Shown one piece after another: positions 16,119-55,570 of a stretch of 57,802 bases of DNA (position 1 is its first letter; each line of letters starts with the position of its first letter). Position numbers and translations under genes: made by a program. The notes under the pieces are model-generated. The model was not told where the DNA came from, made no database searches, and worked only from the letters and a program-made list of their open reading frames with translations. This DNA is from an uncultured Ruminococcus sp. (lineage in GTDB: Bacteria > Bacillota > Clostridia > Oscillospirales > Acutalibacteraceae): assembly GCA_902798365.1 (NCBI GenBank), contig CADBWP010000005.1, forward strand, positions 1 to 57,802. Direction: 5' to 3'.

Positions 16119-16146
16119 TTATTCGTTATTCGTTATTCTTTATTCT
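16119..16146. repeat. Heptanucleotide array TTATTCG/TTATTCT
   Basis: Four tandem 7-bp units, two TTATTCG and two TTATTCT, directly follow a palindromic terminator. The last unit contains the stop codon of the glycosyltransferase gene. Confidence 0.75.
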
Positions 16147-17093
16147 TTACTTCCGTTCTTCCGCTCCTTTTTGAAGAACGCCGCCGCCAAGGGGGGACAT
16201 ATGGAAATAACCACGCCGTATGCCTTGCTTGAGAGCTTGCCCGAGCCGAACAGATACGGAATTATTCCGCGCCTGACGTTGCTCACCAGCAGGGCTTCGG
16301 TTTCGCGGTCGCGCGTAACGCAGCACACCGCCTGCTTATAAAACGAAACTGAATAGCGCGTGCGTCGTAAACGCGAAAGCCGCACAAGGCGCGGATAACG
16401 CTCCGCCAAAAAACGCTCTACACAGTCGCTTACATCATAAAACGCGAGCCGCCTTTTTGAAAACCGCGAGTGCATTATGCTTTGACTGTTGTCGGAGCGG
16501 TAATTGTACAAAAACCGGTCGGTATAAACTATGACCCGTGCGCGGTCAAACAAAAGCGGTGTCGTGTAGTAGTCCTCAAAAATGATGTTCTCGGGAAAAC
16601 GGACGCCGTCAAAAAGAGCCCTTGAATACAGCTTGCCCCATGACGAGGTGGTAAGCCCCGTGTCTTCCTTAAGCAGCTGCATTATGCCCTGCTCGGAGCC
16701 GAGCACCGAAACATCCCTTTGCCCCGACTCCCTGTGTGACGCACAGGCGATGTCGGCGTTATATTCGCACAGCAGCCCGTACAGCACGGATATCAGCTCG
16801 GGGCTGACGGTGTCGTCGCTATCGACAAAGAGAAGATACTCTCCCTTTGCCGCGTCTATACCGGCGTTGCGCGCACCCGACGGTCCCGTGTTGCCCTGAT
16901 GGATCACCCTTACGCAGCCATGCTCCCGCGCAAAGCGGTCGCACAGCGCAGGGCTGCCGTCGGCAGAGCCGTCGTCAACCAAAATGATCTCTGTATTGGG
17001 ATATGTCTGTGCAACAAGAGATGTGACGCAGTCCGAAATATAGTTTTCGACGTTATATACCGGCACTATCACCGATATAAGGGGCTGTGGCAT
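16140..17093 (-). CDS. Family 2 glycosyltransferase
   Basis: 317 residues with a GT-A fold. The nucleotide-sugar region starts ISVIVPVYNVENYISDCVTS, then EIILVDDGSADGSPALCDRF with the first acidic site, GPSGARNAGIDAAKGEYL and the metal-binding DSDDTVSPELIS. A candidate catalytic acidic residue lies in NIIFEDYYTTPLLF. The last ~100 residues are basic and hydrophobic and may contact the membrane. It is transcribed alone. The acceptor is unknown; such enzymes build capsule, exopolysaccharide or wall glycans. Confidence 0.9.
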   Translation of the reverse strand: MPQPLISVIVPVYNVENYISDCVTSLVAQTYPNTEIILVDDGSADGSPALCDRFAREHGCVRVIHQGNTGPSGARNAGIDAAKGEYLLFVDSDDTVSPELISVLYGLLCEYNADIACASHRESGQRDVSVLGSEQGIMQLLKEDTGLTTSSWGKLYSRALFDGVRFPENIIFEDYYTTPLLFDRARVIVYTDRFLYNYRSDNSQSIMHSRFSKRRLAFYDVSDCVERFLAERYPRLVRLSRLRRTRYSVSFYKQAVCCVTRDRETEALLVSNVRRGIIPYLFGSGKLSSKAYGVVISICPPLAAAFFKKERKNGSKE

Positions 17094-37225: not shown

Positions 37226-38677
37226 ATGGGACTTTTTGACAAGAAATTCTGCGACATCTGCGGCGAAAAGATCGGTCTGCTGGGCAACCGCAAGCTTGAG
37301 GACGGCAACCTGTGCAAAAACTGCGCAAGAAAGCTGTCGCCATGGTTTGACGAGCGCAGGCACTCCACCGTGGAGCAGATAAAAAAACAGCTCGCATACC
37401 GCGAGGAAAACCGCTCGCAGGCGTCGGCGTTCAACATCACGCGCTCGTTCGGTAAGGACAGCACAAAGCTGTACATCGACGACAACGCCCGTAAGCTTGC
37501 CGTTAACAGAGGCACCGACTTTGGCTCGAGCAACCCGGATATCCTCGATTTTTCGCAGGTGACGGGCTGTGACCTCGAGATCAGGGAGGATCGCCGCGAG
37601 CTTACAAAAACCGTTGACGGAAGATCTGTAAGCTACAATCCGCCGCGCTACGAATACTCCTACGACTTTAAGGTGACCATACGCGTCAATCACCAATACT
37701 TTGACGAAATGCGCTTTGACCTCAACTCAAGCTCGGTAAATACCGGCGAAACAAGAATGAACGGCGGCGGCAGCGGCGCGTGGCATGTGAGCAGCAGCTT
37801 CGGAATGAACTCGAGCCGCCGCGGCATAGACGAATACAACGAGCTTGTGCAGATGGGCAACGAGCTTAAGGCGACGATAGACAGCCGGAGAGGCGTCGGC
37901 ACAACGGGTTTCGGCGCACAGCAGGGCTTTGGCACAGGCGGACTGTCCGGCATGGGCATGGGCATGGCAGGCGCAGGCTTTGCTCAGCAGCAGGGCTTTG
38001 GCGCAAGCGCAACTTCGTCAGGTGCTGTAACAGCCATCCGCTTCGGCTCTGCTAATCCTGTTCTCTATCCCCAAAACGCAGGCGGAAATTCGTTTACGCT
38101 TGAGCTGAGATTCACAGGCAGCGCCTCTGTCAGCGTTTACAACCCCGCTTTGGTACAGAACTGCGGAGGCTTGGAAGCGTTGAAAAACACCCTGGCAAAC
38201 GAGCTTTCGGCAGCAGCGGCGGAGGCGGTTTATACCTGCGGCACACAGCAGGTTCCCTTTGCGCAGCTTAACGCAAAAAGTCAGGAGATAGGAAGTCAGG
38301 TTACATCCGCGCTTCAGGGCAAATGGATGTCGCAGTACGGCATAGCTCTGCAATACGTTGAGATGATGGGCTTCACCATGTCTCAGGAGAGTCAGCAGAT
38401 GTACAATCAGATTCAAAACATGCAGATGCAGCAGGGTTTTGCGCAGCAGCAATATCAGCAGCCTCAGCAGGGCTTTGCACAGCAGCAATATCAGCAGTCT
38501 CAGCAGGGCTTTGCACAGCAGCAGTATCAGCAGCCTCAACAGGGCTTTGCACAGCAGCAGTATCAGCAGCCTCAACAGGGCTTTACACAGCAGCCCATGT
38601 CGTGGGTATGCCCCGCATGCGGCTGTGAGAACAGCGGAAAGTTCTGCCAGTCATGCGGAACACCCAAGCCCCAATAA
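37226..38677 (+). CDS. Two-zinc-ribbon protein with DUF4428-like start, SPFH-like middle and Gln-rich repeats
   Basis: 483 residues in clear modules. Residues 8-38 are a treble-clef ribbon (FCDICGEKIGLLGNRKLEDG, then CKNC) like DUF4428. About 70-210 is a compact domain of unknown type (RGTDFGSSNPDILDFSQVTG). A Gly-rich linker of GFG and GMG repeats follows. About 265-400 resembles a virion-core/SPFH-like domain (FGSANPVLYPQNAGGNSFTL). Four 12-residue Gln-rich repeats come next, then a C-terminal zinc ribbon WVCPACGCENSGKFCQSCG. No membrane helix is visible. RBS AAGGAG precedes ATG at 37226. Function unknown; zinc ribbons at both ends suggest a scaffold. Confidence 0.8.
   Translation: MGLFDKKFCDICGEKIGLLGNRKLEDGNLCKNCARKLSPWFDERRHSTVEQIKKQLAYREENRSQASAFNITRSFGKDSTKLYIDDNARKLAVNRGTDFGSSNPDILDFSQVTGCDLEIREDRRELTKTVDGRSVSYNPPRYEYSYDFKVTIRVNHQYFDEMRFDLNSSSVNTGETRMNGGGSGAWHVSSSFGMNSSRRGIDEYNELVQMGNELKATIDSRRGVGTTGFGAQQGFGTGGLSGMGMGMAGAGFAQQQGFGASATSSGAVTAIRFGSANPVLYPQNAGGNSFTLELRFTGSASVSVYNPALVQNCGGLEALKNTLANELSAAAAEAVYTCGTQQVPFAQLNAKSQEIGSQVTSALQGKWMSQYGIALQYVEMMGFTMSQESQQMYNQIQNMQMQQGFAQQQYQQPQQGFAQQQYQQSQQGFAQQQYQQPQQGFAQQQYQQPQQGFTQQPMSWVCPACGCENSGKFCQSCGTPKPQ
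38435..38589 (+). repeat. 36-bp tandem coding repeats (Gln-rich)
   Basis: Four 36-bp units from 38435 to 38578 encode GFAQQQYQQPQQ with small changes (one P to S), then a partial unit GFTQQ. Copies 3 and 4 are identical in DNA, showing recent duplication. Confidence 0.9.
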
Positions 38678-38735: not shown

Positions 38736-39455
38736 TTATTTTTTTGCGGTTATCTTCTTTTCCTCGCCGTTCATAAGGCGCTTTATGTTGTCCTTGTGCT
38801 TTACGGTGGCGAATATGCCGATGACCAGCGCCGAAAACGTGGCGATCAGCACATACCACAGACAGGGCTGAGTAAGCAGATGGTCAAACACAAAGGTGAT
38901 GATAAAGGTGTAGGGGGCGTAAAGCAGCGCACCTGCTATGCTTGCGCGAGAGATGATCTTGCCGATGATGAAGATGACAAGGAAGGTGGCGAGAATTGCG
39001 GCAAACACGCGCCAGTCGGAGGCGAGCATGAGCGCCGCCGCGGTGACAATGCCCTTTCCGCCCTTGAAGTGGAAGTAAACCGGGAACGAGTGACCGAGGA
39101 TGCAGAACACCCCGGCAAAATATTTTATGCACGCCGTAAAGCAGCGCACAAACCACGGGTCGTCCGACGGCAGCTTTACAAAGCTGAATATCCACACCGC
39201 GATAAACACGGCGGCAATGCACTTTAACGCGTCGCACACGATGGTGATTACAGCGGGAACCTTGCCCACAGAGCGCAGCACGTTTGTAAAGCCCGCGTTG
39301 CCGCTGCCCATGTCGCGTATGTCGCTTTTTCCCTTGGTGACGACCCTTGTGACAATGACGGCGGGGTTGATGCTGCCTATAAGATATGCTGTTACGGCGA
39401 CCGCCAAAAACATATACCAGTTGGCGGCAAATATGCCCCAAAGCATTTGGATCAT
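38736..39455 (-). CDS. plsY: Glycerol-3-phosphate acyltransferase PlsY
   Basis: 239 residues, slightly longer than the usual ~200, with five to seven membrane helices. The conserved motifs are [17 protein letters not shown] (acyl-phosphate site), [14 protein letters not shown] and the C-terminal [13 protein letters not shown]. It acylates glycerol 3-phosphate from acyl phosphate, starting phospholipid synthesis, using the product of GpsA (9495). It overlaps the end of der by 4 bases, so the two genes are translationally coupled. Confidence 0.95.
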
Positions 39456-40784
39456 TGTTTTTCTCCCCTCTCTCTTATAATTATGCGCACGGGCGTTCCT
39501 TCAAGCCCGAACGCCTCGCGTATGCGGTTTTCAAGATAGCGCTGATAAGAAAAATGGAAAAGCTCGGCGTCGTTGCAGAAAAACACGAACGTGGGCGGCT
39601 TTACCGACGCCTGGGTCATGTAGAATATTTTCAGTCTTTTGCCCTTATCGGACGGAGGCTGCACCCTTGCGGTAGCCTGTGCAAGCAGCTCGTTGAGCAT
39701 ACCTGTGCGTATGCGCAGGCTTGCGTTTTCGCTGCTTTTTACTATACATTCAAACAGCTTGTCTATGCGCTGTCCCGTTTTTGCCGATATGAACACCTGC
39801 GGAGCGTATGACATGAACGCAGAACGCAAAGTCCGCGTCAAGCTTCTTTTTGAACTCCTGCATGGTTTTGTCGTTCTTTTCAACGGCGTCCCACTTGTTG
39901 ACAGCCAGAACGCAGGCGCGGCCTGCCTCGTGAGCCAGACCTGCCACCTTGGTATCCTGCTCGGTTATGCCCTCGGTGGCGTCTATCATTATAACGCACA
40001 CGTCGCTGCGCTCTATCGCCATTTTTGCGCGGAGGATAGAGTACTTTTCAATGTCGTCGTATATTTTGCTCTGACGGCGAAGCCCTGCGGTATCGGTAAG
40101 GCAGAACCTGCCGTATTTGTTTTCTATAACGGTGTCGATGGTGTCGCGCGTGGTGCCTGCTACGGTAGAAACAATGCAGCGCTCCTCGCCCGTTATTTTG
40201 TTTATCAGCGACGACTTGCCGGCGTTTGGCTTGCCGATTACAGCCACGTTGATAACGCTGCCGTCGGCGTCGTCCTCCTCTGAAAAGTCAAGGTGCTCAA
40301 ACACCCTGTCGAGCAGATCGCCCGTGCCGTGACCGTGAACCGCCGAAACCATTACGGGCTCGCCCAGACCGAGGTTGTAAAACTCGTAAAACTCCATGGG
40401 CGGCTCGCCCACCTTGTCGCACTTGTTGACGCATAGCACCACGGGCTTGCCCGCCTTTTGCAGCATTTGAGCCACCTCGGCGTCGGTGGCGACAACGCCG
40501 CTTTTTATGTCGGTAACAAGAATTATAACCGAGGCGGTGTCTATGGCAAGCTGTGCCTGACGGCGCATTTGCGAGAGGATGACGTCGTCGCTTTTGGGCT
40601 CTATGCCGCCCGTATCGACGGCAAACGCCGACCTGCCGCACCATTCTATTTCACCGTAGATTCGGTCGCGGGTAACGCCGGGGGTATCGTCAACAATGGA
40701 CAGCCGCTGACCGATCAGCTTGTTAAACAGCGTGCTTTTGCCGACGTTCGGTCTGCCGACAACAGCTATTACGGGTTTGTTCAT
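39452..40784 (-). pseudogene. der: GTPase Der, frameshifted by a 7-bp duplication
   Basis: Der is an essential double-GTPase for 50S ribosome assembly. Domain 1 has [23 protein letters not shown] and NKCD. Domain 2 has [20 protein letters not shown] and NKWD. The C-terminal KH-like domain ([20 protein letters not shown]) lies in a different frame. The frames meet at 39815-39828, where GAACGCA is repeated twice in tandem (plus strand). Removing one copy restores [17 protein letters not shown]. The first frame alone ends after about 344 residues. Either a real slipped-strand mutation, a phase-variable state, or a sequence error. Confidence 0.9.
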
Positions 40785-46250: not shown

Positions 46251-46336
46251 ATACAGTCGGGCATCCGAGGTTGTTCCCAACTCCGTGCTGTCTCCCCGAC
46301 CTTCACTGTTCATTGTTCATTGTTCATTGTTCACTG
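46251..46336. repeat. Palindrome plus heptamer composite repeat (copy B)
   Basis: ATACAGTCGGG (46251-46261) and CCCGACC (46295-46301) as in copy A at 103-152. They are followed by five heptamers TTCAYTG (46302-46336). The last one ends at the xseA stop region. Confidence 0.7.
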
Positions 46337-47545
46337 CTCACCAACCACCGCCGACACTTTTCCGTCGGAGAAGGTCACGGTTATCTCGTCGCCGCCCGAC
46401 AGCTCCTTTGAGGATGACACGGGCGTTCCGTCTTTTTCGGTAAAGCTGTAGCCGCGCGTGAGCATACCGACGGGATTGAGCCCCTCGAGCCTTGCGGCAA
46501 GGGTGCGGTAAAGCGATTCGCGCCGCTGAACCGCGGCGTCTGCGTTTTTGGACAGGCTGACCGCAACGGAACGAAGCCGTGCGGCGGTGCGGTCGGGCGT
46601 TTGAGCCGCCCGTGACCTGATTAGCCGCCTGTGGCAGCTTTGTTGGCGCGCCTTAAGCCTTGCCAGCCTGTTGTCGGCAAGCGACATAAGGTACTGCCGC
46701 TGTGACAGCAGGTATGCCTTGAGCTCTGCCGCGTCCGGCACGGCAAGCTCTGCCGCCGCCGAGGGCGTGGGCGCGCGCATGTCTGCGACAAAGTCGCAGA
46801 TGGTAAAGTCGGTTTCGTGGCCTACCGCCGAAATAACGGGCGTGGCGCAGTCATACACCGCGCGCGCAAGCTCCTCGCTGTTGAACGCCCACAGATCCTC
46901 GGCGGAGCCTCCGCCCCTTCCTATGATTATAACGTCGCACCCGCCCGAGCGGTCGAGCCTTTTGAGCGCCGAGGTGAGCAGTGCGGCTGCTCCGTCGCCC
47001 TGAACAAGCACGGGAAACAACAGCATATCCGCCGACGGATAGCGGCGGAAGAGTATGTTGCGGATGTCCTGCACAGCCGCGCCCGTGGGCGAGGTGATGA
47101 CGCCGACCGTCTTGGGAAAACGCGGAAGCTGCTTTTTGTGAGAAGGGTCAAACAGCCCCTGAGCGCCGAGGCGTTCCTTTAGCTGTTCAAAGGCGAGAGC
47201 GAGAGCTCCCACGCCGTCGGGCTGCATGTCCTCTATATAAAACTGATACTGCCCCGAGGGCGCATACACCGACACCCTGCCGCGGCAGATTATTTTCATT
47301 CCGTTTTGCGGGCGGAACCTGAGCCGCCGCGCGTTGCCTGCAAACATTACGCAGCGGATGACGCTGCGCTCGTCCTTGAGCGAAAGATAGATGTGTCCGC
47401 TGCTGTAGTGGTCGGTCAGGTTTGAGATCTCGCCCGAGAGCAGCACCGCGCCCAGACGCGGATCGTTTTCGAGCACCGATTTGACGTATGACGTGAGCTG
47501 ACTGACCGTGAGCACGGTCGGCTTGGGGATTTTAGGTGAGTACAT
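46331..47545 (-). CDS. xseA: Exodeoxyribonuclease VII large subunit
   Basis: 404 residues. The OB-fold domain (VLLSGEISNLTDHYSSGHIY) binds DNA, and the catalytic domain follows with ITSPTGAAVQDIRNILFRRY and IIIGRGGGSAEDLWAFN. With the small subunit XseB it degrades single-stranded DNA from both ends. No xseB follows, although the usual order is nusB-xseA-xseB. It overlaps the TsaD-like gene by 14 bases. Confidence 0.96.
   Translation of the reverse strand: MYSPKIPKPTVLTVSQLTSYVKSVLENDPRLGAVLLSGEISNLTDHYSSGHIYLSLKDERSVIRCVMFAGNARRLRFRPQNGMKIICRGRVSVYAPSGQYQFYIEDMQPDGVGALALAFEQLKERLGAQGLFDPSHKKQLPRFPKTVGVITSPTGAAVQDIRNILFRRYPSADMLLFPVLVQGDGAAALLTSALKRLDRSGGCDVIIIGRGGGSAEDLWAFNSEELARAVYDCATPVISAVGHETDFTICDFVADMRAPTPSAAAELAVPDAAELKAYLLSQRQYLMSLADNRLARLKARQQSCHRRLIRSRAAQTPDRTAARLRSVAVSLSKNADAAVQRRESLYRTLAARLEGLNPVGMLTRGYSFTEKDGTPVSSSKELSGGDEITVTFSDGKVSAVVGEQ

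Positions 47546-52149: not shown

Positions 52150-55570
<3,421 letters not shown>

Follow-up and report, generated by a model that had tools for sequence, protein, structure and literature searches.

The window analysed here, which is the entire contig C5 (57,802 bases) of the draft genome of an uncultured Ruminococcus bromii relative, carries a der gene, coding for the GTPase Der, that is divided between two reading frames by a perfect head-to-tail duplication of seven bases. The heptamer GAACGCA occupies positions 39815-39821 and again 39822-39828; the self-match of the pair runs for exactly 7 bases, so that it has a single register, and no microhomology is present at its ends when the flanks are read directly. 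This is in agreement with the original prediction, which placed the duplication at these positions, had the first frame end after 344 codons and held that der is thereby split; indeed, both parts match the Der model and the relatives possess the gene in a single frame. Taken alone, a 7-base tandem pair is ordinary and not above chance: 38 perfect pairs were observed in 457,802 bases of the genome, against a mean of 31.7 in three third-order Markov simulations (the 14-mer itself, with up to one mismatch allowed, was found once, the expectation being 0.05 per window). What is noteworthy is that this pair falls just where the frame of a conserved gene is broken, and that the break occurs in none of the 93 distinct relatives readable across the site. 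We infer, with moderate confidence, that the second copy of GAACGCA is a local assembly or consensus error and that it is not present in the living chromosome.

Der (EngA) is a double-Era GTPase acting in ribosome assembly, in which two tandem GTPase domains (GD1 and GD2) are followed by a KH-like domain; for the protein itself we refer to PMC3323550 and PMC3466195 (E. coli). This architecture is recognizable in the window, though spread over two frames. The first frame runs from the ATG at 40784 to the TGA at 39752-39750, whereas the second stays open between the stop at 39967 and the TGA at 39454-39452. The first piece matches positions 1-322 of the Der profile TIGR03594, above its cut-off, and the second positions 315-432; in Pfam terms, MMR_HSR1 is found in two stretches of the first piece and KH_dom-like (PF14714) in the second. 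In the same way, on the solved Bacillus subtilis Der chain 2hjg (436 residues) the first piece covers residues 1-320 and the second residues 319-435. The two pieces thus jointly cover the known structure nearly end to end, and the boundary between them places the cut inside GD2 and not at a domain border. The difference from an ordinary Der is that the 7-base duplication leaves the parts in different frames: the continuous frame of all 93 relatives is here interrupted by a stop after 344 codons, and the broken first frame is without the end of GD2 and the KH domain. Among the matches listed from one open-access library, no paper describes such a der break, which is no proof that none exists.

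The split gene is the sole der of this genome. TIGR03594 gave 17 more matches elsewhere in the 2.03-Mb sequence and none of them lies above the cut-off, which rules out a second copy. These weaker matches, of a kind found in GTPase-rich genomes, are what one could invoke if der were a true, tolerated pseudogene whose work is done by another GTPase. We regard this as very improbable, since none of the 17 reaches the Der cut-off and the ratio of nonsynonymous to synonymous change (pN/pS) is elevated neither before nor after the break. Indeed, its median against the relatives is 0.167 before the break and 0.154 after it (91 full-length comparisons), and 0.148 and 0.128, respectively, for the 25 nearest relatives by summed identity. 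The equally low values on the two sides imply that no decay followed, so that the change is either recent or not real.

The relatives on which these comparisons rest are other species, strain-level variation lying outside the comparison; the closest named ones are uncultured rumen and gut Clostridia and Ruminococcus bromii, and in the nearest genome of the genus the der DNA is about 82% identical. The 138 der loci taken were the better matches (80 from one search for relatives and 58 from searches of genomes of the genus); after setting aside 44 duplicates, none of which is broken, and one locus cut by a contig end, 93 distinct loci remained. The genus search produced a local match (E 1e-20) in 124 of 161 genomes, and reading was confined to the loci that had been fetched. 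The comparison of the locus in relatives proposed in the original prediction was therefore carried out, and in all 93 distinct readable loci both parts of der lie in one open frame. Moreover, the exact 14-mer is present in four of the 186 fetched loci, all four being the site of the window itself, and the duplication was not found in any relative among these 186. The single-copy, single-frame state of the relatives implies that the extra copy is derived, or not real. A chimera of two species joined at the break can be ruled out, since the identities of the two sides of der to the 91 relatives correlate with each other (Spearman 0.82). The gene neighbourhood is likewise conserved: plsY lies within 60 bases after der in 81 of the 83 loci with a plsY hit, out of the 93.

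It might be argued that the two pieces are both functional. Der could be made as two complementing chains, namely the first piece and a separately started chain with the end of GD2 and the KH domain; the low pN/pS of both pieces against relatives and the availability of in-frame starts (ATG at 39814; TTG at 39829, 39841 and 39883) would fit this idea. By eye, however, no convincing ribosome-binding site precedes those starts, the cut does not respect a domain border, and not one of the 93 distinct relatives has a split gene, so that we consider such an arrangement very unlikely. Even less credible is that programmed +1 (or -2) frameshifting restores a full Der from the duplicated gene. The two frames overlap over about 217 bases (39967-39750), which makes a shift possible in principle, but inspection of this overlap by eye revealed no recognized +1 site (such as the CTT TGA of prfB), the break is conserved in none of the 93 distinct relatives, all of which make do without a shift, and the exact, recent duplication at the junction already accounts for the frames. 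Even taken together, a split and a frameshifted Der are unlikely.

The perfect head-to-tail copy that changes the frame also resembles tandem-duplication frameshift mutations and phase variation. In other respects it differs: at der there are two copies only and no array, the gene is an essential one, no fetched relative carries the duplication, and the 14-mer is seen at its own site only (186 loci, with no genome of the same species among them). That a living lineage of the Ruminococcus bromii group tolerates a split Der, or reversibly switches it, whether as two chains or through a 7-base toggle, appears highly improbable. The original prediction had left the choice between a recent event, a reversible slippage state and a consensus error. 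This is borne out in part: the comparison with relatives makes the extra copy derived, and hence recent or unreal, an error is favoured by the draft state and the other lesions of the genome, and reversible slippage finds no specific support, the pair also lacking microhomology and a local fold better than that of shuffles.

A more serious competitor is a real, very recent duplication, carried by all the sequenced cells or by a part of them, that inactivated der; such cells would be dying, or would be rare and yet have supplied the consensus, and the allele would be lost by reversion or selection. The exactness of the tandem copy, the conservation of the sequence to its left and right, and the single-copy state of the readable relatives, which makes the duplication derived, agree with it. 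Its strongest point is that k-mer assemblers normally report only what the reads contain: an assembler of this type working with long k normally needs reads that bear the duplication, which favours a real allele unless a join or a local-assembly step made it. On the other hand, the ends of the pair lack the microhomology that simple slippage would favour, and the local fold is no stronger than that of shuffled sequences (z 0.09 and -0.40), which also rules out a duplication driven by a hairpin. On the whole, we consider a genuine mutation possible but clearly the less likely explanation; if the allele is real, it is recent and probably minor.

We favour an assembly or consensus error because the break affects the only der copy, has not been followed by decay, is not shared by relatives and lies in a draft genome with other lesions. 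Unlike the duplication itself, the split frames, the single-frame der of the relatives, the draft state and those lesions, both the error as such and its mechanism are inferred. The local error would come from a draft assembly of the short-read type: for example, two pieces truly overlapping by 7 bases might have been joined end to end without being merged; alternatively, a minority read path may have been taken into the consensus. The organism would then have an ordinary, intact der. Spurious short duplications and small indels occur in draft or metagenome-type assemblies, and the case of der resembles them in being an exact tandem copy within a conserved essential gene, in a draft that has contig overlaps of the k-mer type; it differs from them in that the site is at neither an N run nor a contig edge.

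The state of the assembly can be described as follows. The draft genome comprises 2,032,059 bases in 74 contigs, with a completeness of 86.13% and a contamination of 2.16%. The two ends of 21 of these contigs were compared, 42 ends in all, and three pairs of ends are identical over their outermost 99, 97 and 65 bases; contigs produced by k-mer assemblers share such exact end overlaps. The genome sample holds 106 Ns in three runs, and at one run, in another contig, the 99 bases that precede it recur exactly after it, which is most simply read as an overlap left unmerged at a join. When the open reading frames (ORFs) of relatives were screened against the 458-kb sample, the frame was intact at about 174 places and divided in two at four. 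Two of the four proved real on inspection, namely der and a LicD-type gene; the other two were false, one resulting from an antisense ORF used as query and one being an ordinary junction between two neighbouring oxidoreductase genes. With two real breaks against about 174 places that are intact, a consensus riddled with indels was rejected as the cause; the counts are too small for an error rate. In the control genomes the numbers of two-frame and intact places were 0 and about 118 (G061), 2 and about 105 (G073), and 0 and about 120 (G101, a single contig). A repeat-rich genome was also discarded as the cause, pairs of period 7 being near chance and longer near-tandem copies showing no evident excess by eye in comparison with three relatives. 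Finally, a screen of tandem duplications for the signature of a break gave one further candidate in the genome, on contig C20, which has the look of a border between genes, the first ORF coding for a glycosyltransferase and the second lacking a Pfam hit; the same signature was hit once in G061, in three rows at two sites in G073 and once in G101 (Pfam scan only).

Two further local lesions were found. On the same contig as der, ligA has lost its last residues after VLAGED together with its stop, so that its frame continues into spoIIIAA, crossing a terminator-like hairpin, while spoIIIAA retains its own GGAGG and ATG. The ligA tail with GSKLTKAQ and the stop is kept in all 19 loci fetched from relatives. 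The loss could have arisen in the assembly, by an error akin to that proposed for der, or be a genuine deletion. The other lesion is that of the LicD-type gene (NAD-epimerase plus LicD; locus L155, contig C8, 459-2232), which is about 17 codons short and changed in frame with respect to one relative.

Several observations weigh against the idea of an error at der. There is no N and no contig edge at the duplication. At ligA and the LicD-type gene, sequence has been deleted and not duplicated, and both lesions could be genuine. The 7-base pairs are not in excess, so that errors of this sort leave no genome-wide signature, and der is the only tandem duplication of the sample with a break confirmed by relatives. 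The control G073, too, gave two two-frame places in the screen, one of them a false hit from the same antisense ORF query. The gene with the N run and its 99-base repeat also holds sequence repeated at 207 bases, and hence the repeat may be natural, and the N runs themselves could be masks introduced by the data provider.

Features of the window discussed in the text
Feature	Position	Strand	Basis or remark
der, first piece: 344-aa ORF with GD1 and most of GD2, then out-of-frame residues	39750..40784	-	profile and structure-chain matches
der, second piece, other frame: end of GD2 (with the SAKTG stretch) and KH-like domain	39452..39820	-	profile and structure-chain matches
Perfect 7-bp tandem duplication within der (TGCGTTC twice on the gene strand)	39815..39828	-	direct sequence reading
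plsY, its ATG overlapping the der stop by 4 bases (ATGA)	38736..39455	-	
ligA-spoIIIAA, single 975-aa ORF	52634-55561	-	junction near 53680

Other repeats and elements were noticed in the course of this analysis. Arrays with 7-base units in about four to six copies occur in the window at 155-186 (AACTTTC), 16119-16149 (TTATTCG) and 46302-46341 (TTCATTG), all three outside the main ORFs or at their edges; the genome might be prone to arrays of this kind, although no excess of perfect pairs is seen in it. At 38429-38594 a 36-base repeat in 4.6 copies encodes a Q-rich repeat of 12 residues close to the C-terminal end of a DUF4428-domain protein, which by eye finishes with a zinc-ribbon-like motif. 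The two ends of contig C18 (34911 bases; loci L165 and L303) overlap exactly over 99 bases, so that the contig is probably circular, a plasmid or a phage of about 34.8 kb. A plasmid search returned three distant records, which were not used. The control G061 has a perfect tandem copy of 8 bases towards the end of an amylase of 938 aa that bears CBM26 and dockerin modules (locus L238, around 3101); the frame possibly changes at this point, and the cause may be a comparable event or error.

As for its meaning, the der break most likely goes back to an assembly error, or else to a mutation that does not last, and does not point to new biology. Should the duplication be real and widespread in the population, one would have to ask whether the Ruminococcus bromii group needs its Der to be intact, the support for this being the consensus sequence only. 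The case is, above all, a warning that frame breaks seen in a single genome, when they affect essential genes of draft assemblies, call for a comparison with relatives and with reads before biological conclusions are drawn.
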